A DNA stretch of 64,000 bases from Fibrobacter sp. (GTDB lineage: Bacteria > Fibrobacterota > Fibrobacteria > Fibrobacterales > Fibrobacteraceae), in the NCBI GenBank assembly GCA_024399065.1, contig JAKSIB010000018.1:1-64000 (forward strand), written 5' to 3'. Under the pieces are notes generated by a model. That model saw only the letters and a program-made list of their open reading frames with translations, ran no database searches and had not been told where the DNA came from. The position numbers were made by a program, and so were the translations under genes. Of this stretch, positions 28,677-44,239 are shown in pieces. The stretch's first letter is position 1. Every line of letters begins with the position of its first letter.

Positions 28677-30302
28677 TTATTTAGCAAAAATCAAATGAGG
28701 ACCTTTACGGCCACGAACTATACGGCCATTCACATAGAAAACGCGACCATCATTACGCATGCGATGCACTGCACGGGCGTTTTCAAGGCGGCGAGACGCA
28801 ATGGCCATGGTAGAATCCGCAGAACTACTTGAGCCAACAAAGCTGCTAGACGAAGTCGGATTAACAGTTTCACTGCTGGAGGAACTACTTGTTACGACTG
28901 GTCCCACAGGGGCTTTGTATTCATAAGCACCCAAGTCGGGAGCCTTGCCTTCGTAAGGCAATTTTACGTTGACACCCTTGTCGATAAACTGACTCTTGGG
29001 AGAAAGTTTCAGGAAATCGATATCGGGCAGGCTACCGTCAGCCTTGCGGGGGCCGAAAGCGCCGCCAAGAGGTTCCAGAGGTTTTCCTGTCACCGTCATG
29101 CTGGGATCATCGACGCTGACAAAATCTGCATTGGTCGCCGTCAAGTTCAAGTTCCAGGTGTAGTATTCGCCGGCAGCATAATCCCCGCCGATGTAAGAAG
29201 TCTTGTTGGGATAGGCGATGTTATTCTTCATGACGTGAGCCTTGGCTCCCTTCAATACAACGCCATCGGTACGGTTACCCGCAGCGTCCCAGGTACTCGC
29301 CCACATGTTGAAGGCGGAACCGTTCATGTAAGCTGTATTATTCAGCCAGTCGTTGCCACCGCTACTGTGGTTGGCGTAAAAACCAGAGGCCTTGTTCTTC
29401 CAGGCCACGCAATTTCTGATGGTGTGACGAACGCCAGTCTTGCTGCTGCCCGCCTTAAACCCGTTTCCGTTTCCATCCTTAGGCTTGCCAGTGCCGTAAT
29501 TGCTGTAGCCGTGACCCATGGCCCAGCTGTTTTCAATCACAACAGGAAATTCCTGGCTAATGAAATCCCAGCCATCGTCACTGTTCCACCAGGCGCGACA
29601 TCCGATAAACTTCGTCGTATCGCCGCCACTCTGGTAATGAACGCCAAAGCCATCTGCATTCTGCCCGTCACCTTGACGTCCATTAGGGTCGTAGTTGTCA
29701 TGACTATCGCAGTTCAGGAACAGATGGCCGCCGCCACTTCCCGAGCCTTTTTCATTCACGAAAAATCCGGATCCGCCGTGATGATGACTGTTGATCAATT
29801 CCAGAAAGATGTGCTTACTGCGGGAAACGTACACGCCCACGTTGGATTCACCCTTCATGGGAACGTTCTTGAATTCAAGCCCCTTCAAGTGAAGATACTG
29901 AGCCTGAATCAAGACGCCATTGGTATAGCGTACGTTATTGGTTCCGTTGGCAATGGGCATCTTGCTAAAGTCGAACACAGGAACCTCGCCAGGATAAGCC
30001 AAATAATGAATGCGGTTATTATCGCTAGCACCACTCTTAGTCAAGTGAATGCCAGCAAACATATTGTCGTTCTTCACATAGGTTGTATCCGTATGCATGT
30101 AGGTGCCGCCGCGAACCCAAACAGTATCACCAGCTACGACCTTTGAATTAGCCTTTTTCAAGGATGCGAAAGGCTTTTCCTTGGAACCCACATTGGCATC
30201 ATTTCCATTAGGAGCCACATAGTAAACGGAAGCCATGACAGACTGGGACAAAAGTGCAATAGTCACAGCAAACAAACTCATCTTTAAATTCAACTTAGCC
30301 AT
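28677..30302 (-). CDS. Secreted pectate lyase, PL9-like, with variant sorting tail
   Basis: 541 aa from the ATG at 30302 (GAGAG 7 nt upstream). Signal peptide, then YYVAPNGNDANVGSKEKPFASLKKA, the usual start of right-handed parallel beta-helix enzymes. PL9 hallmarks are visible: CDSHDNYDP, GQNADGFGVHY, CRAWWNSDDGWDF, GNGFKAG and CVAWKNKASGFYANH. It should cut polygalacturonan or rhamnogalacturonan by beta-elimination. Poly-Ser linkers (about 468-495) lead to a basic 44-residue tail ending in a VFYVNGR motif and IFAK, like that of the GH53 neighbour but unlike the usual tails here. Confidence 0.88.
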   Translation of the reverse strand: MAKLNLKMSLFAVTIALLSQSVMASVYYVAPNGNDANVGSKEKPFASLKKANSKVVAGDTVWVRGGTYMHTDTTYVKNDNMFAGIHLTKSGASDNNRIHYLAYPGEVPVFDFSKMPIANGTNNVRYTNGVLIQAQYLHLKGLEFKNVPMKGESNVGVYVSRSKHIFLELINSHHHGGSGFFVNEKGSGSGGGHLFLNCDSHDNYDPNGRQGDGQNADGFGVHYQSGGDTTKFIGCRAWWNSDDGWDFISQEFPVVIENSWAMGHGYSNYGTGKPKDGNGNGFKAGSSKTGVRHTIRNCVAWKNKASGFYANHSSGGNDWLNNTAYMNGSAFNMWASTWDAAGNRTDGVVLKGAKAHVMKNNIAYPNKTSYIGGDYAAGEYYTWNLNLTATNADFVSVDDPSMTVTGKPLEPLGGAFGPRKADGSLPDIDFLKLSPKSQFIDKGVNVKLPYEGKAPDLGAYEYKAPVGPVVTSSSSSSETVNPTSSSSFVGSSSSADSTMAIASRRLENARAVHRMRNDGRVFYVNGRIVRGRKGPHLIFAK

Positions 30303-30322
30303 ATATTCTCTCATGAAATTTT

Positions 30323-30397: not shown

Positions 30398-32236
30398 TTA
30401 CTTGTTATAGATTTTAATTCTAGAAGCGCGGCTTTGCAGATTGCTGGCGGAACGGCCGTTCACAAAGAAACTACGGTTATTTTCGCGCTGACGCAAGAGC
30501 TCGCGAGCCCTCTGAATACTGCGATTAGCGATTGCAGCGGTGGTAGAATCCTTTTCGCCTGCAGGCGGAACCACAACAGGATCGATGGATTCCACTACAA
30601 ACTGGATCTTGTCGATATTTGGGCCGCCATCTGCTGTAGTAGAAGTGAAGGTAATGTTGCTGACGCCAGCAGGCATCTTGAGAACCACATCCTTGCTCTT
30701 CCAACTGGTCCATTCGGAGGTAGATTCAAAATCCTGGGACTTCACCTGAACTTCGCCATTGACAGCAATACTTACAGGGCGATTGACAGTAGAACCGTTG
30801 GCGAAAACGATGCGAACCTTCTGTTCACCTTCACTGGGAAGGCACACGGGAATGGTCACGGAAGAACCTACGACGTTATCCAGGTTGGCGTAACCCTTGC
30901 CGGAGAAGCCTGCGTGCTTATCTTCAAAGATTGTGTTACTGAAAACTGCATTTTCTACTTCGTAGTTCAAGGAGTCCTTGCCTACGAACTTGAAGTTTGC
31001 CCCCAGATTCACTTCCTTGTTGAGAGAAGTCACCGTGTAATCCTTGGCGGTGCCAGAGTTATCCCCAGTCCAGCCTGTGAATTCCCAACCTTCCAGCGGG
31101 ACGGCGGTAAAAGTCACCTTGGAGCCTTCTGCGATTTCGGCACCTTCAATGCTCTGGGCAATTGTACCACCAGCTGCTGCAGCAGTCTTCACGGCAATCT
31201 TCTTAATTGCCTTTCCACCAACCCAATCAGGAAGCGTTGCGTTGTACTGCTTTGCGATTGCAGCCAGTTCATCAAGGCGAGCGTTAGCGGTGTACCTCTG
31301 ACCATCGCGATCGAACATAGGCTTGTTGCTGTAGCGGGTCGGTTCCCAAACAAAAGTACCCCATCCTAAGTCCCCAAAGTCATTCATAATGCCGTTAATC
31401 AGCTTAGTACGATCGGCGGTATATTCGCAGCTCAACACAGGCTTTTTCTTCTTGGTCACAAGGCCGAACATGTCGCGCCAATCCTGGCCATTGTTGGTGG
31501 TACCATAAGTGGAACCGCAAATGGCATCGTAATCGATGTTGGCGTCAATCTTGCTGTACCAACCTTCAAAACCGCCATCAGGACGGGGGCGACCATGCTG
31601 CATCACGATCTTGATGGAGGGATCGATATCGCGGACAGCCTTTACGCCGGAGTTGATGATGTTTGCAAATTCAGCAGTCTTGTTGATAGAAACGCCAGAA
31701 ACTGCGGAGTTGATTTCATTACCCACCTGAACCATGTCGGGGCGAAGGCCTGCCTTCATCAAGGCGTTCATGGTGGTCTTCACATGGTCATAAGCCAGCT
31801 TACCCATTTCGGCATTAGACTTTCCGCTCCAGGATGCAGGCACATACTGCTTGCCGATGGAAGCCCAGGTGTCGCTCATGTGGAAATCCAGGAAGAAGCC
31901 CATGTTGTGAGCCTTAATACGCTTGGCGAGAGCAATGGTATGGTCCAGGTCGCACCAGCAAACCTTGGAATTTGCACCGGAATAACTTTCCGTGGCGTAG
32001 CCAACGCAAGAATTCACGAAGGTACGAACACGAATGAAGTTGATACCGTGATCTTGAAGGATGTCAAACAGATCCTGTTGCTTGCCATCGTGATAATACT
32101 TTGCACCCAGGGATTCATCTTCCAGAACCCAGGAAACATCCACGCCCACAATGTAGGGGCGAGCCATGGCGGCGGCGGCAATTACACCCATAGCAATTGC
32201 AGCTTTCTTAAAAGTATTCATGAAATTGAACTTCAT
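30398..32236 (-). CDS. Secreted arabinogalactan endo-beta-1,4-galactanase (GH53)
   Basis: 612 aa. The signal peptide ends near MARP. GH53 catalytic domain about 28-345: GVDVSW, RVRTFV, DFHMSDTWA, VQVGNEI with acid/base Glu 174, and LSCEYTADR with nucleophile Glu 271. It cuts beta-1,4-galactan side chains of pectin. A short repeat domain (VTFTAVPLEGWEFTGWTG) follows, then a CBM35/6-like module (about 425-560), then a basic tail with the FFVNGR motif ending in IYNK. A perfect AAGGAG site precedes the ATG. The promoter is flanked by two pairs of the 12-bp TRTAGTACA repeats, so control by the nearby regulator is likely. Confidence 0.92.
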   Translation of the reverse strand: MKFNFMNTFKKAAIAMGVIAAAAMARPYIVGVDVSWVLEDESLGAKYYHDGKQQDLFDILQDHGINFIRVRTFVNSCVGYATESYSGANSKVCWCDLDHTIALAKRIKAHNMGFFLDFHMSDTWASIGKQYVPASWSGKSNAEMGKLAYDHVKTTMNALMKAGLRPDMVQVGNEINSAVSGVSINKTAEFANIINSGVKAVRDIDPSIKIVMQHGRPRPDGGFEGWYSKIDANIDYDAICGSTYGTTNNGQDWRDMFGLVTKKKKPVLSCEYTADRTKLINGIMNDFGDLGWGTFVWEPTRYSNKPMFDRDGQRYTANARLDELAAIAKQYNATLPDWVGGKAIKKIAVKTAAAAGGTIAQSIEGAEIAEGSKVTFTAVPLEGWEFTGWTGDNSGTAKDYTVTSLNKEVNLGANFKFVGKDSLNYEVENAVFSNTIFEDKHAGFSGKGYANLDNVVGSSVTIPVCLPSEGEQKVRIVFANGSTVNRPVSIAVNGEVQVKSQDFESTSEWTSWKSKDVVLKMPAGVSNITFTSTTADGGPNIDKIQFVVESIDPVVVPPAGEKDSTTAAIANRSIQRARELLRQRENNRSFFVNGRSASNLQSRASRIKIYNK

Positions 32237-32318
32237 AACTTACTCCTTTTTATCCAATCATCCCTATCCAAGCGTTCAAAGGTCCCTAATCCAAAGCGCC
32301 TAGACTTTTTATTTTTTT

Positions 32319-32389
32319 TATTGTACTATAATATGTACTACAACTTTATAGAAACAAATATAATCACTTTTACTACAAAGTGTACTATA
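32319..32389 (-). promoter_or_regulatory. GH53 promoter with two 12-bp tandem-repeat operators
   Basis: On the minus strand: TATAGTACACTT plus TGTAGTAAAAGT (32389-32366), then TATATTTG (32362-32355) as -7 element, then TGTAGTACATAT plus TATAGTACAATA (32342-32319). Each pair is two 12-bp units head to tail with no gap. The first pair covers the -33 region and the second lies just after the expected transcription start. A single inverted TAGTACA lies at 32406-32412. Confidence 0.7.
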
Positions 32390-32413
32390 AAAATTCAAAA
32401 TTTTTTAGTACAT

Positions 32414-32440
32414 GCAAAAAAGCCCCCTTTTCAGGGGGTA
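32414..32440 (-). terminator. Rho-independent terminator of LamG lipoprotein gene
   Basis: CCCCCT and AGGGGG stem; on the minus strand it is followed by six T. It separates the regulator/lipoprotein operon from the GH53 promoter. Confidence 0.85.
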
Positions 32441-32479
32441 ATTCCGCGTTTTTCATCAAAATCGGCAATTCTGAATTTT

Positions 32480-34519
32480 TTATTTCATTGCCTGCTTCTG
32501 CAGAGCATAGAAAAGTCGCATCCAGTTTTCACTCTGGGAACCGTCGAAGAAGAAAATTTCGTCCAGACCGCCCACCAAATTAGGTTCATCACCGCCAATG
32601 GCAGGATTGGTGCAAGTGGAGAAATCGCCTCCATTTTCAAACTGGTCCTTGCTGAGGGGCACACCATCCACATAGGTAAAGACACTGTCCCCACGGATGG
32701 TGAAGGAATAGTTGTGCCAGGTTCCATCCAGAATCCGTGCAGTACCATAAGTGGAATTATAAACGCCTTCCCCATCGTGGCGGGCGTCAATACGCAGGTT
32801 TACTGCAGCCTGATTACCACGCTGCTGCAGGATGAAGGCTACACTGTCCTTCTTCGCAGAGAGAATGCGAGTATAACTGGTTCCCGGTGTAGCCTGGGAA
32901 GCGCTATCAGCCTTGATCCAGATGGATGCGGACATCTGCGTTCCGTTATTGGTGAAGGGTTCAAAGCCTTCAATCATCTTCCAGGAATCCGTAGAATCCA
33001 GCCAGAGGGCGTTTCCGAGGATTCCCTCATTCTTAGAGCCCGTCAAGCTGTCAAATGATTCCGTATGGCGCGAAAGCACTACGGCGGTGTCGCCTACAGG
33101 CTTACCCCAATCATCGTAATAGCAGTTGTTCAACAAGTCAAATGAGAGAGTTCCACTTTCCGAGAAGACAACTTCCTTTAGGCTGCCCCAGTACAGCAGG
33201 GAATCCCCTTCGCTCTTTTGTAGAGGGATTACGCGACCTAGCGCATCCACAAGGCAGGCCTTCGTGGCAGGCTTTTCCAGACGGATGGGCAGAGGCATAT
33301 CCTTGAAGGGTTCATCTGCAGAAGATAGATCTTCAAAGCCTTCCGGAAGCGAAATGGTCAATGGAATCACTTTTGCATTGGCAATACTATCAGCATGAAT
33401 AAAGGTTGTTTCTCCATCTTTCAATGCGAAGTCCGACCAGAAAAAGCCTTCGTCAGTAATGTCGACTAACCAATGGGAGCCGCCGGGAATTTCAGGCAGA
33501 TGGTCCACCTTAACTAACCCATTTGCCACAGCAGCAGAATCCAGAACGTGGTTGATGACACTCAGGGTGGAATAGATGGTGTCATTCTTTAAGGATCTTG
33601 CGACAGGCACTGAAACTTTTATAGTGTCACCAATTTTACGGTCAAGAGGTCTCAAGTCAAAGTAGGCACTGGCCTTGCCCGCCGTGATTTCCCCATAGGA
33701 GGTTTCGACGCACTTGGCTCCTGTGGAATCCACATAATAGGCCGCACAGTCACCAAGTTCAAAGTGGATGTAGACGGTTCTTTCATCACCATCTCCATTG
33801 GAAACGACTGCGGAATCACAAATTCGGCCGCCAGCCATTTTCCATTCAAAATCCAGTATTCCCACAGCGTATTCAACGGAGTCCCGATGGAGACCAAATT
33901 CTCCATCGTAGATGATCAGGGAATCATTCCTGAATTCTTCATACTTGCATTTCAATGAAATGTTCATGTCGAAGGTTTTTGCGTCAAAAAACACATGTTC
34001 AATTTTCTTTTCGTTGGAGTCTACAGGATAGTCACTACTATGGAGTTTGATGGTCTGACTTACGATGAGATTGGTGATGCCCTTATCGCCGATGCGATAG
34101 GTTTCGCCCTCTTCGGCGTTTAGGTCAATGGCGATAGAACGTACGTCACCCTTTACCGGCAAGATGGTCAGGGAGTCATAATCTTGAGCAGGTACGCTAT
34201 CCATGGAAACATGGCCCGCAGCGATGTTCGATTCGCTTACAACCTTTTCCAAATAGGCGGTTGATGTGAAAACTGTGTCGCCCACGGTATCACGCTCCGT
34301 GCGGGAAAGCTGCAAGGTATCCCCTTCGGAGATTTCAAAGTCCGCAACGGAAATCATGACGCGTGCCACGCCATGACCTGTATTGGTTTCAATTAACACC
34401 TTGTTTCCGGTGTTGGTTTCAATAAGAATGCCTGCGACACCGCTGTCACTACTGCAGGCGGCAAACAGCATTGTCATAAATAGCAGAAACGCCGTCAATA
34501 CGAATTTCAAATTTTTCAT
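32480..34519 (-). CDS. Large lipoprotein with C-terminal LamG (concanavalin-like) domain
   Basis: 679 aa from MKNLKFVLTAFLL; lipobox MLFAACSSD. The N-terminus has a short internal repeat (LIETNTGNK, LIETNTGHG), then several predicted beta-domains. The C-terminal 190 residues look like a LamG/concanavalin fold: GNALWLDSTDSWKMI, MSASIWIKADS, DGTWHNYSFTIRGD, YVDGVPL and VGGLDEIFFFD. It probably binds a glycan at the cell surface. The regulator gene ends 15 bp upstream, so the two are an operon with a shared terminator. A sensory partnership is inferred. Confidence 0.75.
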   Translation of the reverse strand: MKNLKFVLTAFLLFMTMLFAACSSDSGVAGILIETNTGNKVLIETNTGHGVARVMISVADFEISEGDTLQLSRTERDTVGDTVFTSTAYLEKVVSESNIAAGHVSMDSVPAQDYDSLTILPVKGDVRSIAIDLNAEEGETYRIGDKGITNLIVSQTIKLHSSDYPVDSNEKKIEHVFFDAKTFDMNISLKCKYEEFRNDSLIIYDGEFGLHRDSVEYAVGILDFEWKMAGGRICDSAVVSNGDGDERTVYIHFELGDCAAYYVDSTGAKCVETSYGEITAGKASAYFDLRPLDRKIGDTIKVSVPVARSLKNDTIYSTLSVINHVLDSAAVANGLVKVDHLPEIPGGSHWLVDITDEGFFWSDFALKDGETTFIHADSIANAKVIPLTISLPEGFEDLSSADEPFKDMPLPIRLEKPATKACLVDALGRVIPLQKSEGDSLLYWGSLKEVVFSESGTLSFDLLNNCYYDDWGKPVGDTAVVLSRHTESFDSLTGSKNEGILGNALWLDSTDSWKMIEGFEPFTNNGTQMSASIWIKADSASQATPGTSYTRILSAKKDSVAFILQQRGNQAAVNLRIDARHDGEGVYNSTYGTARILDGTWHNYSFTIRGDSVFTYVDGVPLSKDQFENGGDFSTCTNPAIGGDEPNLVGGLDEIFFFDGSQSENWMRLFYALQKQAMK

Positions 34520-34534
34520 ACCCAACCTCAAACT

Positions 34535-35356
34535 TTACTTCTTCAAGTTGCTGAAAACGTGAAGATTGATATGTTCCACTTCGGTGGGAGTGTCCGTATC
34601 GGCGGCCACGATTTTGCGAACCACATCCTTGAACTTTTCGGCGGCGGCCTCCACCTTCTTGCGGCCCTTTGCAGAAACGCTAAAAGTAAAGGTGGTCATA
34701 TCGCGGGATTCCTTGCCTTCGGAATCCAAGGCCTGCTTGGAGAGTTCCAGGCACTGCTTCTGATACTGGAGAACCATCTGGCTTTTGCACTGCTGTACAG
34801 TAGCCATGCTTTCCTTGGTAGGTTTCCAGAATCCCTGATCGTTACGGCGGATCAGTTCCATCTTCTGCATCAAGGCGAGACTTGCCTGGATTTTCTTTTC
34901 GCTCACCGGCGGGAAAATTTTTTCAGAAAGTTCACTTACGTCGTCGGACACATCCAGAATTTCGAGGATTGCGTAGATGGTGCTGTTGTACCAGTTGGCA
35001 AAGAACTCGTAGCTGTCGGGATTGACGATAGCCTGGGGATTCTTGTTCAGACGCATCATTTCAGCGAAGGCGGCATCCCGGACTTCGGCGGTCTTGCCCT
35101 GGTCAAAATTAACCATGGCCTCAAAATATTTTGCCTCGTTTCCCTTGAGCCCAATAACATCTACAAAGCGGCCCAGCATGGTGTCGGTCACCTTTTTGCC
35201 CTGAACTACATCATTAAAATAGCTGCGGGTATTGGGGAGGCCCAGCAGGTTGCAAAATTCCGTACGGCTAAAATTTGGTTCCGCCGCCTGACGGCGTTCC
35301 TGATACTCAGCAAGAAACTTACGGAACTTGGTAAATTCAAAAATATTTGCGTACAT
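34535..35356 (-). CDS. TIGR02147-family putative transcriptional regulator
   Basis: 273 aa from the ATG at 35356. The start IFEFTKFRKFLAEYQERRQ matches the usual start of the family, whose members are numerous in F. succinogenes. The N-terminal third contains a helix-turn-helix-like region (SRTEFCNLLGLPNTRSYFNDVVQGKK). The rest is helical, including YNSTIYAILEILDV and LALMQKMELIRRNDQGFWKPT, which resembles a winged helix. It is divergent from the CE12/PL11 operon and co-directional with its lipoprotein partner. The 12-bp repeats in both directions make it the likely operator-binding protein, possibly autoregulated. DNA binding is inferred. Confidence 0.8.
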   Translation of the reverse strand: MYANIFEFTKFRKFLAEYQERRQAAEPNFSRTEFCNLLGLPNTRSYFNDVVQGKKVTDTMLGRFVDVIGLKGNEAKYFEAMVNFDQGKTAEVRDAAFAEMMRLNKNPQAIVNPDSYEFFANWYNSTIYAILEILDVSDDVSELSEKIFPPVSEKKIQASLALMQKMELIRRNDQGFWKPTKESMATVQQCKSQMVLQYQKQCLELSKQALDSEGKESRDMTTFTFSVSAKGRKKVEAAAEKFKDVVRKIVAADTDTPTEVEHINLHVFSNLKK

Positions 35357-35390
35357 AGGCAATAAATCCGTTAAATTTTCACAACCATAA

Positions 35391-35458
35391 TATAGTACAT
35401 AAAGTAGTAAATTCACACCATTTTTCTAAAAAATCATAGTACAAGTTATAGTTAATCA
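35391..35458 (+). promoter_or_regulatory. Two 12-bp repeat pairs in the regulator/CE12 gap
   Basis: TATAGTACATAA plus AGTAGTAAATTC at 35391-35414, and CATAGTACAAGT plus TATAGTTAATCA at 35435-35458. They are degenerate copies of the same tandem 12-bp unit, over the expected regulator promoter, with plus-strand orientation. Confidence 0.6.
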
Positions 35459-35537
35459 CATTTTTACCTATTCCAAAGTAATTAATACACAATTATCAAC
35501 AACTTTTTCACTTTTTTCTTGAAAGCACCCATTGATT

Positions 35538-35573
35538 TATAGTACAATTTGTAGTACATTATGTAGTACAATA
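35538..35573 (+). promoter_or_regulatory. Three perfect tandem 12-bp repeats before the CE12/PL11 operon
   Basis: TATAGTACAATT, TGTAGTACATTA and TGTAGTACAATA lie head to tail with no gap. A TTG at 35519-35521 and the TACAATTTG inside the repeat could be the promoter elements, so a bound protein would act at the promoter itself. Confidence 0.65.
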
Positions 35574-35615
35574 AACATGACCCTGGTTAGGTCGAAGAAA
35601 AAGGGATGTTTGGAA

Positions 35616-37670
35616 ATGATCAACGAATCAAAAAATTCTAAAAGTGATTTAGCAGTCAAGGCTGGAATTTTCCTCGCCGCATTTGGTTTAATCGCAGCCT
35701 TTTCCAGCACACATGCTGCAGATAGCTACAAATTTGACTTTGGTGATGGTCCCGTTGCCGCGGGTTATACCCAGATTAAGTCCAACACCAAATTCGACGC
35801 TACCAAGGGCTACGGTTTTGAATCGGGAACCATCAGCTCCGTAGACCGCCTTTGGGATGACGACCTGAAAACAGACTTTCTCACCTCCAAGGGAGACATG
35901 ATTTTCTCTGTGGTTCTTCCCCAGGGTAACTACGAAGTGTCCTTCACTTTTGGCGATGGCGAAAATGAAAGCGAGACCACCGTCTGGGCTGAAAATCGCA
36001 AGCTCATGTTTGACCGCGTCACCACTGCCGGCGGCGTCTTTAGCACACAGAGCGTTTCCCTTCGCCGTATGGAAACCAAGAGCATCGATGGCTCCGTTAC
36101 CATGAGCATCAAGGACCGCGAAAAGGATTACAGAACTTGGGACAACAAGCTGACCTTTATCATCAGCGGCAAGGCTCCCGCTGTGGCAGGCATTGAAATC
36201 AAGCCCAAGAACGACGTGACTACCTTGTGGCTCTGCGGAAATTCCACCGTAGTGGACCAGCTGACAGCTCCTTGGGCGGGTTGGGGACAGATGTCCCCGG
36301 GATTTTTCAAATCCAGCCTTGCCGTCGCCAACTACGCGGAATCCGGCCTTACCGCCAGCGGCTTTTATAGTATGAAGCGTTTGGCAAAGATTCTCGCCGA
36401 AGTCAAGAAAGGCGATTATGTGACGGTGCAGTTCGCCCATAACGACCAGAAGAACGCCACCGACGTGGCTAACTACGAAACGACCCTGACCAAGTATGCT
36501 AACGAAATCAAGGCCAAGGGTGCCATCCCCCTGTTCGTTACATCCACCGCACGCCAGGGCGAACTGGACCCGAAAACAAGCGTGGGCGGCCTTCCCGAAA
36601 AAATGCGCGCCCTTGGTCAAAAGCTTGGCGTTACCGTTCTGGATTTGAATCAGCATTCCATTAACCTGCAGAATGCCCTAGGCAACAACAAGGAAAAGCT
36701 GTACATGTACACCGCCAGCGACAAGACTCATTTCTGCGAATACGGCGCGTACGAATTGGCCCGCGCCATCCTGGAAGAAATGAAGACCAAGGTTCCTGAT
36801 CTGGCAAAGCACCTACGCGATAACCACGTTGCATTTGATTCCAAGAAGCCCGACGCTCTGGACATTCTGACTCAGGCAAAGGCTCCCATCACCGAAGGCG
36901 GCCTCATTCAGGTTCCCGAAGAACCGGAATCTTCCAGCTCGGGAGAAGCACCCGCAGAATCCTCTAGCAGCAAGGGCGGCGAATCCACCGAGGGAACAAC
37001 TTCCGCAGAACTTCCCGCAAATGCCGTCATCGGCATTCAGGGCGACCAGTTTGCTTCAGCTGACGGCGTCAAGGAAACCACAAACACAGGCTACACCGGC
37101 GAAGGTTACCTAAACATCGATAACGGTGCAGGAACCCGCGCCACTTACAAACTGGAAAAGGATTCAACCCGCGGCGACACTGTATATATTCGCTTTGCCA
37201 ACGGCTCAGATGCAAACCGCGACATGATCGTCAACGGCATCGAAGTTGAATTTCCGCCTACCGGCAGCTGGACCAATTGGAAAATCGTAAGCGTTCCTCT
37301 GAACCTCAGCAATTCCGTAAGGCTTGAAATGGAATCTCTGGCAGAAAAGGGCGGTCCCAATATTGACTGGATCGGATGGAGCGTAAATCATTCGGCAGAC
37401 TCCTCGGCCGAACCCCAAGCCATCTCCCAGAACATCACCGGCGCCGCAGCAAAGTTTAGCGCACACTTCTCCGGAAACAGCATCTTTCTAAACAATGCTC
37501 CCAATGGTTCCTATACAATCAGCATTTTTGATATGCAGGGCAACAAAGTCAAAAGCATTCAAAATGCCCAGGGCAATGAATTCAACGTCCAGCTGAATCA
37601 CGGAACTTATATCATTCGCATTTCACAGGACAATCGCATCTTTGAAATGACAAGAATCATTAAACGATAA
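35616..37670 (+). CDS. Secreted SGNH esterase, CE12-like (rhamnogalacturonan acetylesterase) with CBM and sorting tail
   Basis: 684 aa from the ATG at 35616 (AGGGATG upstream). Signal peptide to about residue 35. A malectin-like beta-domain (YKFDFGDGPVAAGY) is typical at the start of CE12 enzymes. The SGNH domain follows with WLCGNSTV (block I, Asn in place of the usual Asp), AESGLTASG, FAHNDQKN and SDKTHFCEYGA with the DxxH dyad. It probably removes acetyl groups from rhamnogalacturonan. Ser-rich linkers lead to a CBM35/6-like module (about 465-600) and a T9SS-like tail (YTISIFDMQGNKVK ... TYIIRIS ... IIKR). First gene of an operon with PL11, 25 bp downstream. Confidence 0.85.
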   Translation: MINESKNSKSDLAVKAGIFLAAFGLIAAFSSTHAADSYKFDFGDGPVAAGYTQIKSNTKFDATKGYGFESGTISSVDRLWDDDLKTDFLTSKGDMIFSVVLPQGNYEVSFTFGDGENESETTVWAENRKLMFDRVTTAGGVFSTQSVSLRRMETKSIDGSVTMSIKDREKDYRTWDNKLTFIISGKAPAVAGIEIKPKNDVTTLWLCGNSTVVDQLTAPWAGWGQMSPGFFKSSLAVANYAESGLTASGFYSMKRLAKILAEVKKGDYVTVQFAHNDQKNATDVANYETTLTKYANEIKAKGAIPLFVTSTARQGELDPKTSVGGLPEKMRALGQKLGVTVLDLNQHSINLQNALGNNKEKLYMYTASDKTHFCEYGAYELARAILEEMKTKVPDLAKHLRDNHVAFDSKKPDALDILTQAKAPITEGGLIQVPEEPESSSSGEAPAESSSSKGGESTEGTTSAELPANAVIGIQGDQFASADGVKETTNTGYTGEGYLNIDNGAGTRATYKLEKDSTRGDTVYIRFANGSDANRDMIVNGIEVEFPPTGSWTNWKIVSVPLNLSNSVRLEMESLAEKGGPNIDWIGWSVNHSADSSAEPQAISQNITGAAAKFSAHFSGNSIFLNNAPNGSYTISIFDMQGNKVKSIQNAQGNEFNVQLNHGTYIIRISQDNRIFEMTRIIKR

Positions 37671-37695
37671 ATCAAAAAATGAGGAAAAATTGGGT

Positions 37696-39855
37696 ATGAA
37701 TATCACAAGAAAATCAATCGCAGCATTGGCCACCATGATGGCCTTCGGCTTGGCCACCGACGCCGTAGCCGCAAGAAAGTTTGAATATCTGGATCGCGGC
37801 GTTGTCGCTGTCCGACAGAACAACACCAACGCCTTGGTAACCTGGCGCAGTCTGGCCAGCGACGAAGACAATCTCGGCTTTAATGTCTACCGCGTCACCG
37901 GCAAGGACACCGTAAAACTCACAAGCGCACCCGTCACCAAGGGCACCAACTTCGTAGATGGCAAGGCCGACTTTTCCAAAGCAAACACCTACTTCGTAAA
38001 GAAAGTGCTGAACGGCAAGGAACTGGAAACCAAGGGCAGCTACACCATGCCCGCCAACAAGGGCGTCGGCCCTTACGTCACCGTTCCTATCAAAGCTGGG
38101 ACTGCCGTTCATTTTGTTTGGGTCGGCGACCTGGATGGAGACGGCGCTTACGACTATCTTCTGGACCGCCCTACCGATGACGAGCAGAAACTGGAAGCCT
38201 ACAGCAGCACCGGAAAATATTTGTGGACTCTGAATCTGGGCCCCAATAGCGCCAACAAGAACAACATTACTCCGGGCGCGTCTACTCTAGACGTTGGCAT
38301 GTGGGATGGCGCCACCGTCTACGATATTGATTCCGACGGATACGCCGAAGTCATCGTCCGCATCGCCGATGGCGTTACCTTTGGCGACGGCAAGAAATTT
38401 TCTCTCAGCGGTACAAACGCCCAGGTCGTCGCAGTCCTGGACGGACGTACCGGCGCCCTTAAGGCGACCGCACCTGTTCCCAATGATTACATCAAGATTG
38501 GCCCCATGGCCGCCATGATGGAAATCGGCTACCTAGACGGAGTGAACCCCAGTGTAGTTTGCTGGTTCAAGAACCGCAACGCAGACAAGAGTTTTAATAG
38601 CCTGATGGTCGCCTACGGTTATCAGGGCGGAAAGTTCGTTCAGCGCTGGAAATATGACGCAGGCAAGCAGGGCGGCGGCGCAGAAGCCCACCAGATCCGC
38701 ATTGCCGACGTGGATTACGACGGCAAGGACGAAGTACTCCACATGGGTTACGCCCTCAATGGCGACGGCACCTTACGTTACAAAGTTCCTGTTGTAGTTC
38801 ATGGCGACCGCTGGTATGTAGGAGCCTTCAACAAGGGCGACAAGGAAATGATGGGTTACGGCATCCAGCAGGACCATCCCAACAATCTTCTGGAATACTA
38901 CTATAACGCAAGTACCGGTAAACTGATTTGGACTCATTACGGTGATGAAAGTTGCGCAGGCCAGTGCGACGTTGCCCGCGGAAACGTTGGCGACATCGAC
39001 CCCAATTACGCCGGCCTTGAAGTCTGGAGTTTTCAGGGAACTTACAATGCCCAAAGCGAAAAGCTAATCGCCTCCAACTACCTCTATCCCGTCATTCGCT
39101 ACTGGTGGGACGGAGACCTTGGCGCAGAAAGCTATAACGACGGCAAGATCGAAAACTGGAATTACGAAACCAAGGGCGTAGAACGTCAGGCCACCACCTG
39201 GAAAATCTACGGCAGTAGCGGAAGCGAACGCGGGGCCGCCATGTTCCACGGTGACGTTTTCGGCGACTGGCGCGAAGAAAGCATTCTGGTAAATTACGAA
39301 ACCAATGAGCTGGTGATTTTCACCACGGACATTGCCAGCGATTACAAGTTCTACACCCACATGCAGAATCCTTGCTACCGCAACGGCACCACCACCAAGG
39401 GCTATGTGCAGGCAAGCATGCTGGACTACTACCTAGGTTGGGACATGGACACTCCCAAGAAACCCGACATTGAAATCATCGGTGGCGAAAGGGAACCCAG
39501 TTTTGCTGACGCGACAGAACCGGAATCCAGTTCTTCCGTCGCCGAATCAAGCTCTAGCGTAACTAAAGATGAATCCAGTTCAAGCAGTGAAGTCTCGCAG
39601 GCTCTTTCCCAGAACATCGCCGGCACTGCAACCAAATTCAGCGCACAATTCTCAGGAAGCAACATCATTCTGAATCATGTTCCCAATGGTTCCTATACAA
39701 TCAGCATTTTTGATATGCAAGGTCATAGAATCCAGAACATTCAAAATGCCTATGGAAATGAAATCAACGTCCAGCTAAATCGCGGAACTTACCTCATCCG
39801 TATTTCACAGGACGGCAGATCCCTAGGAATATTCAGGGCCATCAAGCAAAAATAA
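37696..39855 (+). CDS. Secreted rhamnogalacturonan lyase (PL11)
   Basis: 719 aa from the ATG at 37696 (GAGGAAA upstream). Signal peptide to about residue 26, then EYLDRGVVAVRQNNTNALVTWRSL, the usual PL11 N-terminus, and a long beta-propeller with Asp-rich calcium loops (GDLDGDGAYDY, DIDSDGYAEV, DVDYDGKDEV) and HGDVFGDWREE. It cleaves the rhamnogalacturonan I backbone by elimination. Two SSSS linkers follow, then a sorting tail nearly the same as in the CE12 gene upstream. It shares the operon and the 12-bp repeat operators, so both should respond to the same signal. Confidence 0.92.
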   Translation: MNITRKSIAALATMMAFGLATDAVAARKFEYLDRGVVAVRQNNTNALVTWRSLASDEDNLGFNVYRVTGKDTVKLTSAPVTKGTNFVDGKADFSKANTYFVKKVLNGKELETKGSYTMPANKGVGPYVTVPIKAGTAVHFVWVGDLDGDGAYDYLLDRPTDDEQKLEAYSSTGKYLWTLNLGPNSANKNNITPGASTLDVGMWDGATVYDIDSDGYAEVIVRIADGVTFGDGKKFSLSGTNAQVVAVLDGRTGALKATAPVPNDYIKIGPMAAMMEIGYLDGVNPSVVCWFKNRNADKSFNSLMVAYGYQGGKFVQRWKYDAGKQGGGAEAHQIRIADVDYDGKDEVLHMGYALNGDGTLRYKVPVVVHGDRWYVGAFNKGDKEMMGYGIQQDHPNNLLEYYYNASTGKLIWTHYGDESCAGQCDVARGNVGDIDPNYAGLEVWSFQGTYNAQSEKLIASNYLYPVIRYWWDGDLGAESYNDGKIENWNYETKGVERQATTWKIYGSSGSERGAAMFHGDVFGDWREESILVNYETNELVIFTTDIASDYKFYTHMQNPCYRNGTTTKGYVQASMLDYYLGWDMDTPKKPDIEIIGGEREPSFADATEPESSSSVAESSSSVTKDESSSSSEVSQALSQNIAGTATKFSAQFSGSNIILNHVPNGSYTISIFDMQGHRIQNIQNAYGNEINVQLNRGTYLIRISQDGRSLGIFRAIKQK

Positions 39856-41625: not shown

Positions 41626-41723
41626 ACCAATCCATCCTTTTTTAGGCAATCCCGGGAAAATTCACCCAAACACTCCCAGGAGAGCCAATCCATAAACACA
41701 TCCTAAATATACCCTTTTTTCGC

Positions 41724-41823
41724 CAAATGTAGACTTTTTTTTCACTAAAACGTAAATATTTTTAAGTTTGTAGACGTATTTAAGTAAAAGTGTTGACTTT
41801 TTATTCATTTTTGTGTAGATTTT
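41724..41823. promoter_or_regulatory. Divergent GH43 promoter region with repeated TGTAGAC motif
   Basis: TGTAGAC at 41728 and 41769, TGTTGAC at 41791 and TGTAGAT at 41814; the last three are 22-23 bp apart. TACATTTG on the minus strand (41731-41724) is a likely -7 element for the minus gene; TAGATTTT (41816-41823) may serve the plus gene, whose ATG has an AAGGAG-type site. Confidence 0.5.
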
Positions 41824-41848
41824 AGTTATCCTAAAAAAAGGAGTGTTT

Positions 41849-44239
41849 ATGGGATTTGGGTTAACCAGCCGTAAAGGGCTTGGGATTTTTTCTGCTGCGT
41901 TCGTAGCCATGGTCATGGCCGGCCAGAGTGTTATGGCTGCCGATTGGTATGCCAAGGATAATCGTCAGGGTGGGCACGATCCTACCATGTTCCGTGATGA
42001 AAACGGTTACATTCTAATGTCCACCAACAACAATTTGGCCATGTCTACATCCGAAGATATGGTCAGGTGGACAGGCAAGGGCCGCGCCCTTAGCGACAAG
42101 CCTAATTGGGATTCCTGGCTGCACAAGGCCGTGGGCGGAAAACACGACGGCATCTGGGCTCCGGATCTGTTCAGAATGGGCAACAAGTACGGCATTTTCT
42201 ATTGCGGTTCCGTATTTGGCCAGAGAACTTCTGCAATTGGTTTGGCTACAAACTCCAAATTGGATTTCAGCAACCCTTCTGCAGGCTGGGCTGACCAGGG
42301 CGAAATCGTTCGTACCACCAATAACAACAATTACAATGCGATTGACGCCGACGTGGTGCAGACTGCCAATGGCGAATACTGGATGACTTACGGTTCCTGG
42401 AATAGGGGTGGTATTCGTCTCGTGAAGCTTGACCCCAATACCGGCAAACAGGCTGCCGACGACAAAACCAACTACCAGATCGCTACACGCAACGGAAGTG
42501 GCATCGAAGGCCCGAGCCTCATTGAACACGATGGTAAGTACTTCCTGTTTACCGCTTGGGACGTATGCTGCAAGCAGGGCGACGAAATCGAGCAGACTAC
42601 CTACAAGACCGCCATGGGTCGCGCCGACAAGGTGAACGGCACTTACTACGACCGTAGCGGCAAGAAACTGAACGATGGCGGTGGCACCATCTTGATGCAG
42701 CGCTACAGCCGTTACGTTGGTCCCGGCGGCGGCGAAGCTTTCAAGGACTTGAACCGCATTCGCTTCGTTCATCATTACTACGACCTGACTGGCGACAAGT
42801 TCAACCATATTCACATTCGTGACGTTGTGTTTACCGATGACAACTGGCCGGAAATGGGTCAGCCCTTTTTGGGTCGTTACCTGAGTGCCGAAGCTGAACA
42901 TGGCGCCATGACTCGTGCAGTTTCTGGTGACATCACTTTCAACTACACAAACGACGCTTCCAACGGCGAGTACGTTGGCTACATCAACACCAAAGGTAGT
43001 AAGATTCGCCTGCCCATGAACATTATGCAGGCTGGCGACTACATCATGCGCTATCGTTATGCTAACGGCGGCGACGCAGATGCCACCCATAAGGTGACTG
43101 TCAACGGGAAGTCCCAGACAGTAAAGCTTCCAAAGACTGGTGCGTGGGGCAAGTTCCCTGAAAGTTCCGTGGCCATGATTCCTACCACTCTTAAGCGTGG
43201 TGGTAACTTCATCGAAGTGGAACCGGACCAGAACTATGCAGAACTGGACCGTATCGACTTCCTCCGCGTGATTCGTGATACCATTCCGGCTAACGGTTTT
43301 GATAACGGTATCAAGGTTCGCCTCACCGACAAGGATCAGTTCGCCATTAAGGCCGGCGGTTATGCCATCTTCGAAAACGTGGTGACCGACTCCATCAAGA
43401 GCACCGATGTGAAGGTTCAGCTCCAGCAGTGCAGCGGCGGTACCTTGAGTATCCGCGATGGTTCCAAGAGCGGCACCGAACTTTCCAAGTGCACCATTCC
43501 TGCTTCTTGCGGAACCGGCACCTGGACCGAAGTCTCCTGCTCTGCAACCGCAAAGCTCAAGGGCGTGAAGGACTTCTACCTGACTGCAGCCGACAACAGT
43601 GGCGAAGTTCTGGTGGGCAACATCAAGTTCGGTAATGGTGCTCCCGCTCCTGCAACCCTCACCAAGCATGGCGCAGGCCCTTCTTCACAGACTGTTGAAG
43701 CTGGCGCAGAAATCACTGGCTTCTACTACGAATTTGCAAATGCCTCTGGCGTCAAGGTGACTGGCCTTCCCGCAGGCATCAAGGCTGACGTGGACGCAGC
43801 CGGCAAGAAGGTGACTTTCAGCGGCAAGGTGGATGCAAATGTTGCTGCAGGCGAATATGCCTACACCATCGAAACCACCGGTGGCATTGAAAACGCAAAG
43901 CTCACTGCAACTATCACCGTGACTCGCATGGATGTTCCTGCAGTTTCCAGCAGCTCCGCAAAGCAGGAAACATCTAGTTCCAGCATCGCTCCGGCTGAAT
44001 CCAGTAGCAGCACTGGAACTGCAGCGCTTGCTCCTGTGGCAGTTGCAAAGCTAGGTTACTCTGTAGTTCGTAACGGCAACAACTACACAGTACGTTTCGA
44101 CAAGGTCGGCAACTACAATCTCTACGTTCTGAATTCTATGGGCCAGGTTGTAACTCGCAAAACCGTGGGCTTGCAGTCCGAGATAACGATTGAAAATCTA
44201 CCTCAAGGAAACTTCATCTTTAGGGTGATGAAACGTTAA
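41849..44239 (+). CDS. Secreted GH43 enzyme, arabinan endo-1,5-alpha-arabinanase-like, with CBMs
   Basis: 796 aa from the ATG at 41849 (AAAGGAG upstream). Signal peptide, then a GH43 domain (about 32-340): GGHDPTMFRDENGYIL (base Asp), IWAPDLFRMGNKY, IDADVVQTANGEYWMTYGSW and SGIEGPSLIEHDGKYFLF (acid Glu). This is the layout of endo-arabinanases, which cut arabinan side chains of pectin. A CBM6-like module (about 345-475), a second shorter binding region, an Ig-like putative-Ig segment, SSSS linkers and a T9SS-like tail (YNLYVLNSMGQVV ... FIFRVMKR) follow. First gene of an operon with a second GH43. Confidence 0.9.
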   Translation: MGFGLTSRKGLGIFSAAFVAMVMAGQSVMAADWYAKDNRQGGHDPTMFRDENGYILMSTNNNLAMSTSEDMVRWTGKGRALSDKPNWDSWLHKAVGGKHDGIWAPDLFRMGNKYGIFYCGSVFGQRTSAIGLATNSKLDFSNPSAGWADQGEIVRTTNNNNYNAIDADVVQTANGEYWMTYGSWNRGGIRLVKLDPNTGKQAADDKTNYQIATRNGSGIEGPSLIEHDGKYFLFTAWDVCCKQGDEIEQTTYKTAMGRADKVNGTYYDRSGKKLNDGGGTILMQRYSRYVGPGGGEAFKDLNRIRFVHHYYDLTGDKFNHIHIRDVVFTDDNWPEMGQPFLGRYLSAEAEHGAMTRAVSGDITFNYTNDASNGEYVGYINTKGSKIRLPMNIMQAGDYIMRYRYANGGDADATHKVTVNGKSQTVKLPKTGAWGKFPESSVAMIPTTLKRGGNFIEVEPDQNYAELDRIDFLRVIRDTIPANGFDNGIKVRLTDKDQFAIKAGGYAIFENVVTDSIKSTDVKVQLQQCSGGTLSIRDGSKSGTELSKCTIPASCGTGTWTEVSCSATAKLKGVKDFYLTAADNSGEVLVGNIKFGNGAPAPATLTKHGAGPSSQTVEAGAEITGFYYEFANASGVKVTGLPAGIKADVDAAGKKVTFSGKVDANVAAGEYAYTIETTGGIENAKLTATITVTRMDVPAVSSSSAKQETSSSSIAPAESSSSTGTAALAPVAVAKLGYSVVRNGNNYTVRFDKVGNYNLYVLNSMGQVVTRKTVGLQSEITIENLPQGNFIFRVMKR

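Follow-up and report, generated by a model that had tools for sequence, protein, structure and literature searches.

Phased direct repeats as the probable operator of a TIGR02147 regulator at a rhamnogalacturonan-I locus of Fibrobacter

Known operator systems and the regulator of the locus

Characterised regulators with a helix-turn-helix (HTH) domain of the lambda-repressor/Xre type bind mostly palindromes. Response regulators of the OmpR/PhoB type use direct-repeat operators, in which sites each spanning about one turn of the helix stand head to tail close to promoters. The known operator word closest to the one considered here is TACANNTGTA of the CopY/MecI/BlaI regulators (PMC7253601). As for Fibrobacter, the genome paper on F. 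succinogenes S85 left the transcriptional control of cellulases unanswered and remarked on the paucity of regulators near cellulase genes (PMC3079729). Here we analyse a window of 64,000 nucleotides from Fibrobacter sp., a gut bacterium that degrades plant fibre (assembly GCA_024399065.1, contig JAKSIB010000018.1, positions 1 to 64,000), in which head-to-tail copies of the unit TRTAGTACA lie around the gene of a TIGR02147 regulator (34535-35356). Judging from the sequence, these repeats are likely to be the operator of that regulator, which would act as a self-repressing repressor of genes for rhamnogalacturonan-I (RG-I) and galactan, one portion of pectin. That they are bound by the neighbouring regulator is very probable, and repression appears to be its most likely mode of action.

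The preliminary description of this DNA knew of no defined operator for the TIGR02147 family, and the literature that we searched (subscription papers lay mostly outside the search) contained none either. No paper naming TIGR02147 was found, one paper lists a DUF4423 protein in a Bdellovibrio proteome table, and the family is without a described operator or function in the papers found. The repeats would provide the first operator definition that we have found for the family. Membership of the regulator is indicated by its match to the NCBIfam model TIGR02147 (Fsuc_second) with 251 bits (cut-off 50) over residues 4-272 of 273 and to Pfam DUF4423 over residues 106-269 (1.3e-24); its own genome encodes 25 full-length TIGR02147 proteins. 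A sequence search of solved structures with the regulator gave no significant match, and Foldseek searches with its models no match below 0.001. In the full model (predicted local distance difference test score, pLDDT, 81), a helical domain at the N-terminus is followed by a winged helix at the C-terminus. Modelled alone, the N-terminal domain reaches a pLDDT of 92 and, among the matches listed, aligns almost solely with lambda-repressor-like HTH proteins; the best structural match of residues 9-92 is HigA-like (Z 8.5, root-mean-square deviation 2.7 over 75 residues; Foldseek E above 3), which makes an HTH of this type plausible. Helix 46-51 of the putative HTH (SYFNDV region) is conserved in orthologues and changed in other orthogroups. 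C-terminal residues 113-194 align with MecI (Z 7.6, root-mean-square deviation 3.0 over 77); ArsR and other folds match equally well.

Residues 9-92 align with lambda-repressor/Xre-type proteins (HigA, GraA, SinR, C proteins), from which the regulator differs in its putative direct-repeat sites and in the extra C-terminal winged-helix-like domain. TACA/TGTA half-sites are shared with CopY/MecI/BlaI, and the modelled winged helix may be of a similar fold, a likeness that at Z under 8 could reflect a common arrangement only; however, the spacer here is 3, the invariant G is asymmetric, the units are repeated in tandem at 12 bp, and the sites are not symmetric operators. The head-to-tail arrangement near promoters is shared with the OmpR/PhoB-type operators; unlike the OmpR/PhoB-type proteins, the regulator is no response regulator, its putative sites have a period of 12, and they are positioned in core promoters.

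Tandem units and their conservation

The preliminary description reported TRTAGTACA-N3 repeats at five places, and all five were recovered as pairs or a triplet. The window has 26 single units with no more than one mismatch, where dinucleotide shuffles gave 9.4 ± 3.1 and none of 100 shuffles reached 26. Among the same-strand unit pairs no more than 40 bp apart in the window, the spacing is exactly 12 bp in five of seven and 24 bp in one. The earlier observation that the window holds no such array elsewhere extends to the whole genome to which the window belongs (3.82 Mb in 118 contigs): pairs matching TRTAGTACANNNTRTAGTAMA with at most two mismatches are confined to the sites at the regulator locus, and the reversed pattern gave no genome-wide match at the same threshold. 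A scan of 32000-36000 against Rfam returned no match, and therefore no known RNA element lies there. It is hardly credible that the repeats are non-regulatory, whether as remnants of older repeats or as low-complexity sequence that arose by chance in AT-rich spacers. The intergenic DNA is indeed AT-rich and single units do occur elsewhere by chance, but the repeats are unique to the locus, strictly phased, kept while the adjacent spacer DNA diverges, and they recur at unlinked genes.

The unit TRTA-G-TACA is a near palindrome whose orientation is set by the central G alone. This would suit an inverted repeat TACA-NNN-TRTA as the true unit, bound by a symmetric dimer, with the 12-bp tandem appearance a by-product of a half-palindromic word. 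The best structural matches of the C-terminal domain include winged helices of MecI/BlaI type, which together with the CopY-family operator TACANNTGTA (PMC7253601) point in the same direction. However, all 29 curated pairs have G at the centre of each unit, which is not expected of a symmetric site; curation was not blind to this G, and a scan allowing any central base returned only G..G and its complement C..C. Moreover, the spacer is 3 and not 2, and the units of related orthogroups (TTCTCA, GTGTTC, TGTRGAC) are non-palindromic yet have similar direct spacing. For these reasons we consider the symmetric dimer unlikely. Because 9-bp units recur at a 12-bp period, we infer instead one protein per unit, side by side: regulator molecules would bind head to tail to units lying nearly on one helix face, making contact through the predicted N-terminal lambda-repressor-like HTH, possibly aided by the C-terminal winged helix.

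Whether the repeats are conserved beside orthologous regulators, a question raised by the preliminary description, has been answered in its favour: orthologues of at least 66% identity are present in eight further Fibrobacter genomes, and all of them carry the repeats. Pairs with at most one mismatch occur in 9/9 orthologue-bearing genomes and in 2/28 other Fibrobacter genomes (p = 4e-7, partly an effect of linkage). A stricter comparison can be made within the family, where an operator lies no more than 260 bp from the start of 9/9 orthologue genes and of 0/169 other TIGR02147 genes. The idea of a single word serving the whole TIGR02147 family as operator is ruled out by the same 169 promoters. 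Five orthologue loci found later in another collection (L280-L284) all carry the site; L285, whose contig has the same length as G001:C70, was not counted as a further locus. Of the paralogues with 46-49% identity, L287-L289 have none, and L286 is truncated too early to be scored. L280 lies on a contig labelled as a Bacteroidales metagenome-assembled genome from horse faeces; its regulator is 97% identical and its source is probably Fibrobacter.

The individual sites are conserved as well. G009 has the CE12-PL11 operator too, a two-unit form of it is present in G010, G003, G033, G035, G030 and G020, and the weaker pair of the divergent region is retained in G009 and L280. When the GH53 promoters of nine genomes are aligned, both pairs, 42-47 bp apart, and the intervening TTATATTT are kept while much of the remainder is divergent. 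When genomes having GH53 but no regulator were sought, every GH53 detected in the genus proved to be in a genome that also has the locus or its sites; a GH53 homologue is also present in G042, from another family.

In one relative, sites also occur away from the regulator locus. In G026, PL11 lies on a different contig from the regulator and is immediately preceded by two pairs (L103:7540-7593), and a single pair (L104:5192-5212) stands on a third contig, at a gene for a GH127 beta-L-arabinofuranosidase. In G032, three pairs of a one-base variant word, TGTAGAACA, with a 12-bp period precede a secreted glycosidase-like gene (L109:1131-1228), GH43-like by eye. Opposite this gene stands a regulator-like gene fragment, 62% identical over 34 residues and interrupted by a run of N.

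Promoter positions, predicted repression and the putative target genes

The features of the locus are collected in Table 1. Simple -35/-10 scoring was applied to 18 promoters, and their start sites are sequence-predicted; two of those in the window are placed near 35567 (+) and 32350 (-). In many of these promoters, which have the form TTGAnT...TAyATT, the operator fills the 17-bp spacer and reaches into the -10, or else it follows directly after the -10. At the CE12-PL11 operon, units 1 and 2 fill the putative promoter spacer and unit 3 covers the putative start site; the putative -10 (TACATT) starts within unit 2, a geometry shared with G009. The CE12 core, a consensus match only, reads TTGATT-[TATAGTACAATTTGTAG]-TACATT and the PL11 core of G026 reads TTGACT-[CATAGTACATCTTGTAG]-TATATT. 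The putative promoter of the regulator has a -35-like GTGAAT at 35416-35411 and TATATT at 35394-35389. Relative to the start of the -10, the operator occupies -17 to +4 at the promoters of CE12 (G000, G009), PL11 (G026) and the regulator (G000, G009, G003). At other CE12 promoters it overlaps the -10, and at GH43 it begins 9 bp past the -10 start. Overlap with the predicted -35, -10 or +1 is clear for CE12, PL11, GH43 and the regulators of G000, G009 and G003; it is weak for GH53, GH127 and some regulators, and GH127 and some regulators have no clear core.

Table 1. Genes, predicted operators and putative promoter elements of the locus
Feature	Positions	Strand	Remarks
Predicted CE12-PL11 operon operator	35538..35570	+	three exact head-to-tail units TATAGTACA/TGTAGTACA/TGTAGTACA, 12-bp register
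Putative CE12 promoter core	35532..35560	+	TTGATT 35532-35537, 17-nt spacer 35538-35554, TACATT 35555-35560
Predicted operator of the regulator itself, degenerate pair	35391..35411	+ (gene on -)	over putative regulator promoter
Second, weaker predicted operator pair, regulator/CE12 divergent region	35435..35455	+	CATAGTACA AGT TATAGTTAA
Predicted GH53 operator pair A	32369..32389	-	upstream of -10, in -35 region; near-invariant in 9 genomes
Putative -10 of GH53 operon, TATATTTG	32355..32362	-	between pairs A and B; TTATATTT invariant in 9 genomes
Predicted GH53 operator pair B	32322..32342	-	just downstream of -10; near-invariant in 9 genomes
TIGR02147/DUF4423 regulator, 273 aa	34535..35356	-	predicted lambda-repressor-like HTH near the N-terminus (about 9-92), predicted winged helix towards the C-terminus (about 111-194)
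Lipoprotein with LamG domain	32480..34519	-	Laminin_G_3; lipobox LFAAC; directly after regulator gene, 15-bp gap
GH53 endo-galactanase, predicted regulon member	30398..32236	-	Pfam GH53 5e-52
PL9-like (Pel9A-like) lyase, probably in GH53 operon	28677..30314	-	Pfam 9e-38; gene order conserved
CE12-type GDSL esterase with sorting tail, predicted regulon member	35616..37670	+	
PL11 rhamnogalacturonan lyase with sorting tail, predicted regulon member	37690..39855	+	Pfam RGL11_C 4e-60
GH43+CBM6	41849..44239	+	homologue carries operator in G010, G003, G033, G035, G030

Since the operator lies inside promoter cores, repression and autorepression are suggested. Once bound, the regulator would occupy the -35/-10 region or the sequence immediately past the -10, thereby keeping RNA polymerase from the promoters of GH53, of CE12-PL11 and of its own operon, which includes the LamG lipoprotein. 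The block would be lifted by a signal connected with RG-I or galactan. The preliminary description had the copies facing the enzyme genes, and this is so at GH53, CE12, PL11 and GH43. It does not apply to the regulator itself or to GH127 in a relative, where the units point away from the gene, and unit direction is therefore no strict rule.

Some observations weigh against this interpretation. The regulator and the enzyme genes co-occur within the genus, and the contrast of 9/9 with 2/28 genomes is in part one of linkage. The GH43+CBM6 gene of the window has no operator, its site having been lost or never present. In G020 and G011, sites occur where no orthologue was detected. Such sites would be expected if the repeats were the operator of another protein, for example another TIGR02147 paralogue or an unrelated factor. 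Yet sites stand at every orthologue promoter and at 0/169 other TIGR02147 genes, and the two exceptions are compatible with assembly gaps: the contig of G020 starts at the place expected for the regulator, and the completeness of G011 is 82%. On balance, we find a different binding protein very unlikely. Finally, GH53 has no good -35, and pair A stands in its place, which would also suit an activator. In the GH53 promoters of nine genomes TTATATTT is kept and no TTGAC-like box is found at the right distance, as though pair A, in the -35 region, recruited the polymerase. The same regulator and operator might activate, or activate some promoters and repress others. We give this a small chance, as the CE12, PL11 and regulator sites, within a 16-17 bp spacer and overlapping the -10, and the GH43 sites and GH53 pair B, just downstream of the -10, all occupy positions typical of repressors. 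MerR-type activators that act from the spacer have longer spacers (19-20 bp), which also counts against activation. Repression by the neighbouring regulator is the reading that we prefer.

The neighbours of the regulator encode GH53, a PL9-like lyase, a CE12-type esterase, PL11 and three GH43 enzymes, a set suited to RG-I including the side chains made of galactan and arabinan. The link to galactan and rhamnogalacturonan made in the preliminary description is borne out by the genes that have the operator: GH53 with the PL9-like gene behind it, CE12 and PL11, joined in relatives by GH43 and GH127. The promoter of the GH43+CBM6 gene (window 41640-41860) contains ATGTAGACTTTTTT, conserved in G010, G003, G033, G035 and G030. 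It resembles TGTRGACTTTT, the word of orthogroup cl8 (see below), and perhaps conveys input from a second TIGR02147 regulator.

Promoter words and lipoprotein partners in the wider TIGR02147 family

We grouped 178 TIGR02147 genes, mainly from six Fibrobacter genomes, at 58% identity. Several orthogroups have a promoter 7-mer that recurs beyond the maximum reached in shuffles (given second): GTTCTCA in 13/25 (3) of cl0, TGTGTAA in 6/8 (2) of cl4, GATACAA in 6/6 (2) of cl7, GGAACAC in 6/6 (3) of cl9 and TAGTACA in 6/9 (2) of the orthogroup of the window regulator. Where copies stand near each other, cl0, cl3, cl7, cl8 and cl9 repeatedly show direct spacings of 11-13 or 23-25 bp. Orthogroup cl10 (that of L018) has an inverted motif, CGTTGT...ACAACG, with no direct repeats, and lacks a lipoprotein partner. 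In cl5 and cl12-cl15, among others, no repeated promoter word exceeded the shuffles. The promoter sequences suggest that sister TIGR02147 regulators have words of their own, set in repeats of a similar kind; the motifs were picked after inspection and orthologues are not independent, which makes this a lead and not proof. The cl11 motif GTTGTAAANTTCAACAACGG was set aside, as it seemingly lies in the coding end of the upstream gene. The view of the paralogues as purely regulators of carbohydrate-active enzymes was dropped, a clear glycosidase (GH26) being found in one of eight neighbours tested. A paralogue at L026 stands opposite a GH26-CBM35 gene, with a conserved GTGGACAAAAATGTCAAC between the two.

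A lipoprotein gene comes next after nearly every TIGR02147 gene. By a simple rule, 161 of the 178 have a downstream open reading frame (ORF) with a lipobox at a distance of -60 to +120 nt; six more partners were recognised as lipoproteins by eye. A more lenient form of the rule marks 43/184 ORFs in these secretion-rich loci. A 4-nt overlap is the commonest arrangement. In other families of the phylum, the rule finds a partner in 21/30. Domains present in the partners are of the carboxypeptidase-regulatory-like, LamG or FISUMP type. Many partners show, shortly behind the lipid cysteine, a signature like AG..(S/T)ETxN, also seen in other families of the phylum. The partner may be a sensor, or merely part of the regulated output.

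A broader proposal, which we advance tentatively, is that TIGR02147 forms a large unrecognised class of regulators in Fibrobacterota, with dozens of paralogues per genome in many genomes. Most would have their own secreted lipoprotein, maybe a sensor or a substrate-binding output, and would read a word of their own in phased repeats at their own promoters, words and HTH recognition helix having co-diversified. For the family itself, the present locus would mean that a concrete operator becomes available for the first time in an orphan group with 25 members in a single genome, along with a regulon and the predicted sign of its regulation. Comparison among orthogroups would supply natural variants for working out the recognition code, and the pairing of regulator and lipoprotein genes points to a common module in the phylum.

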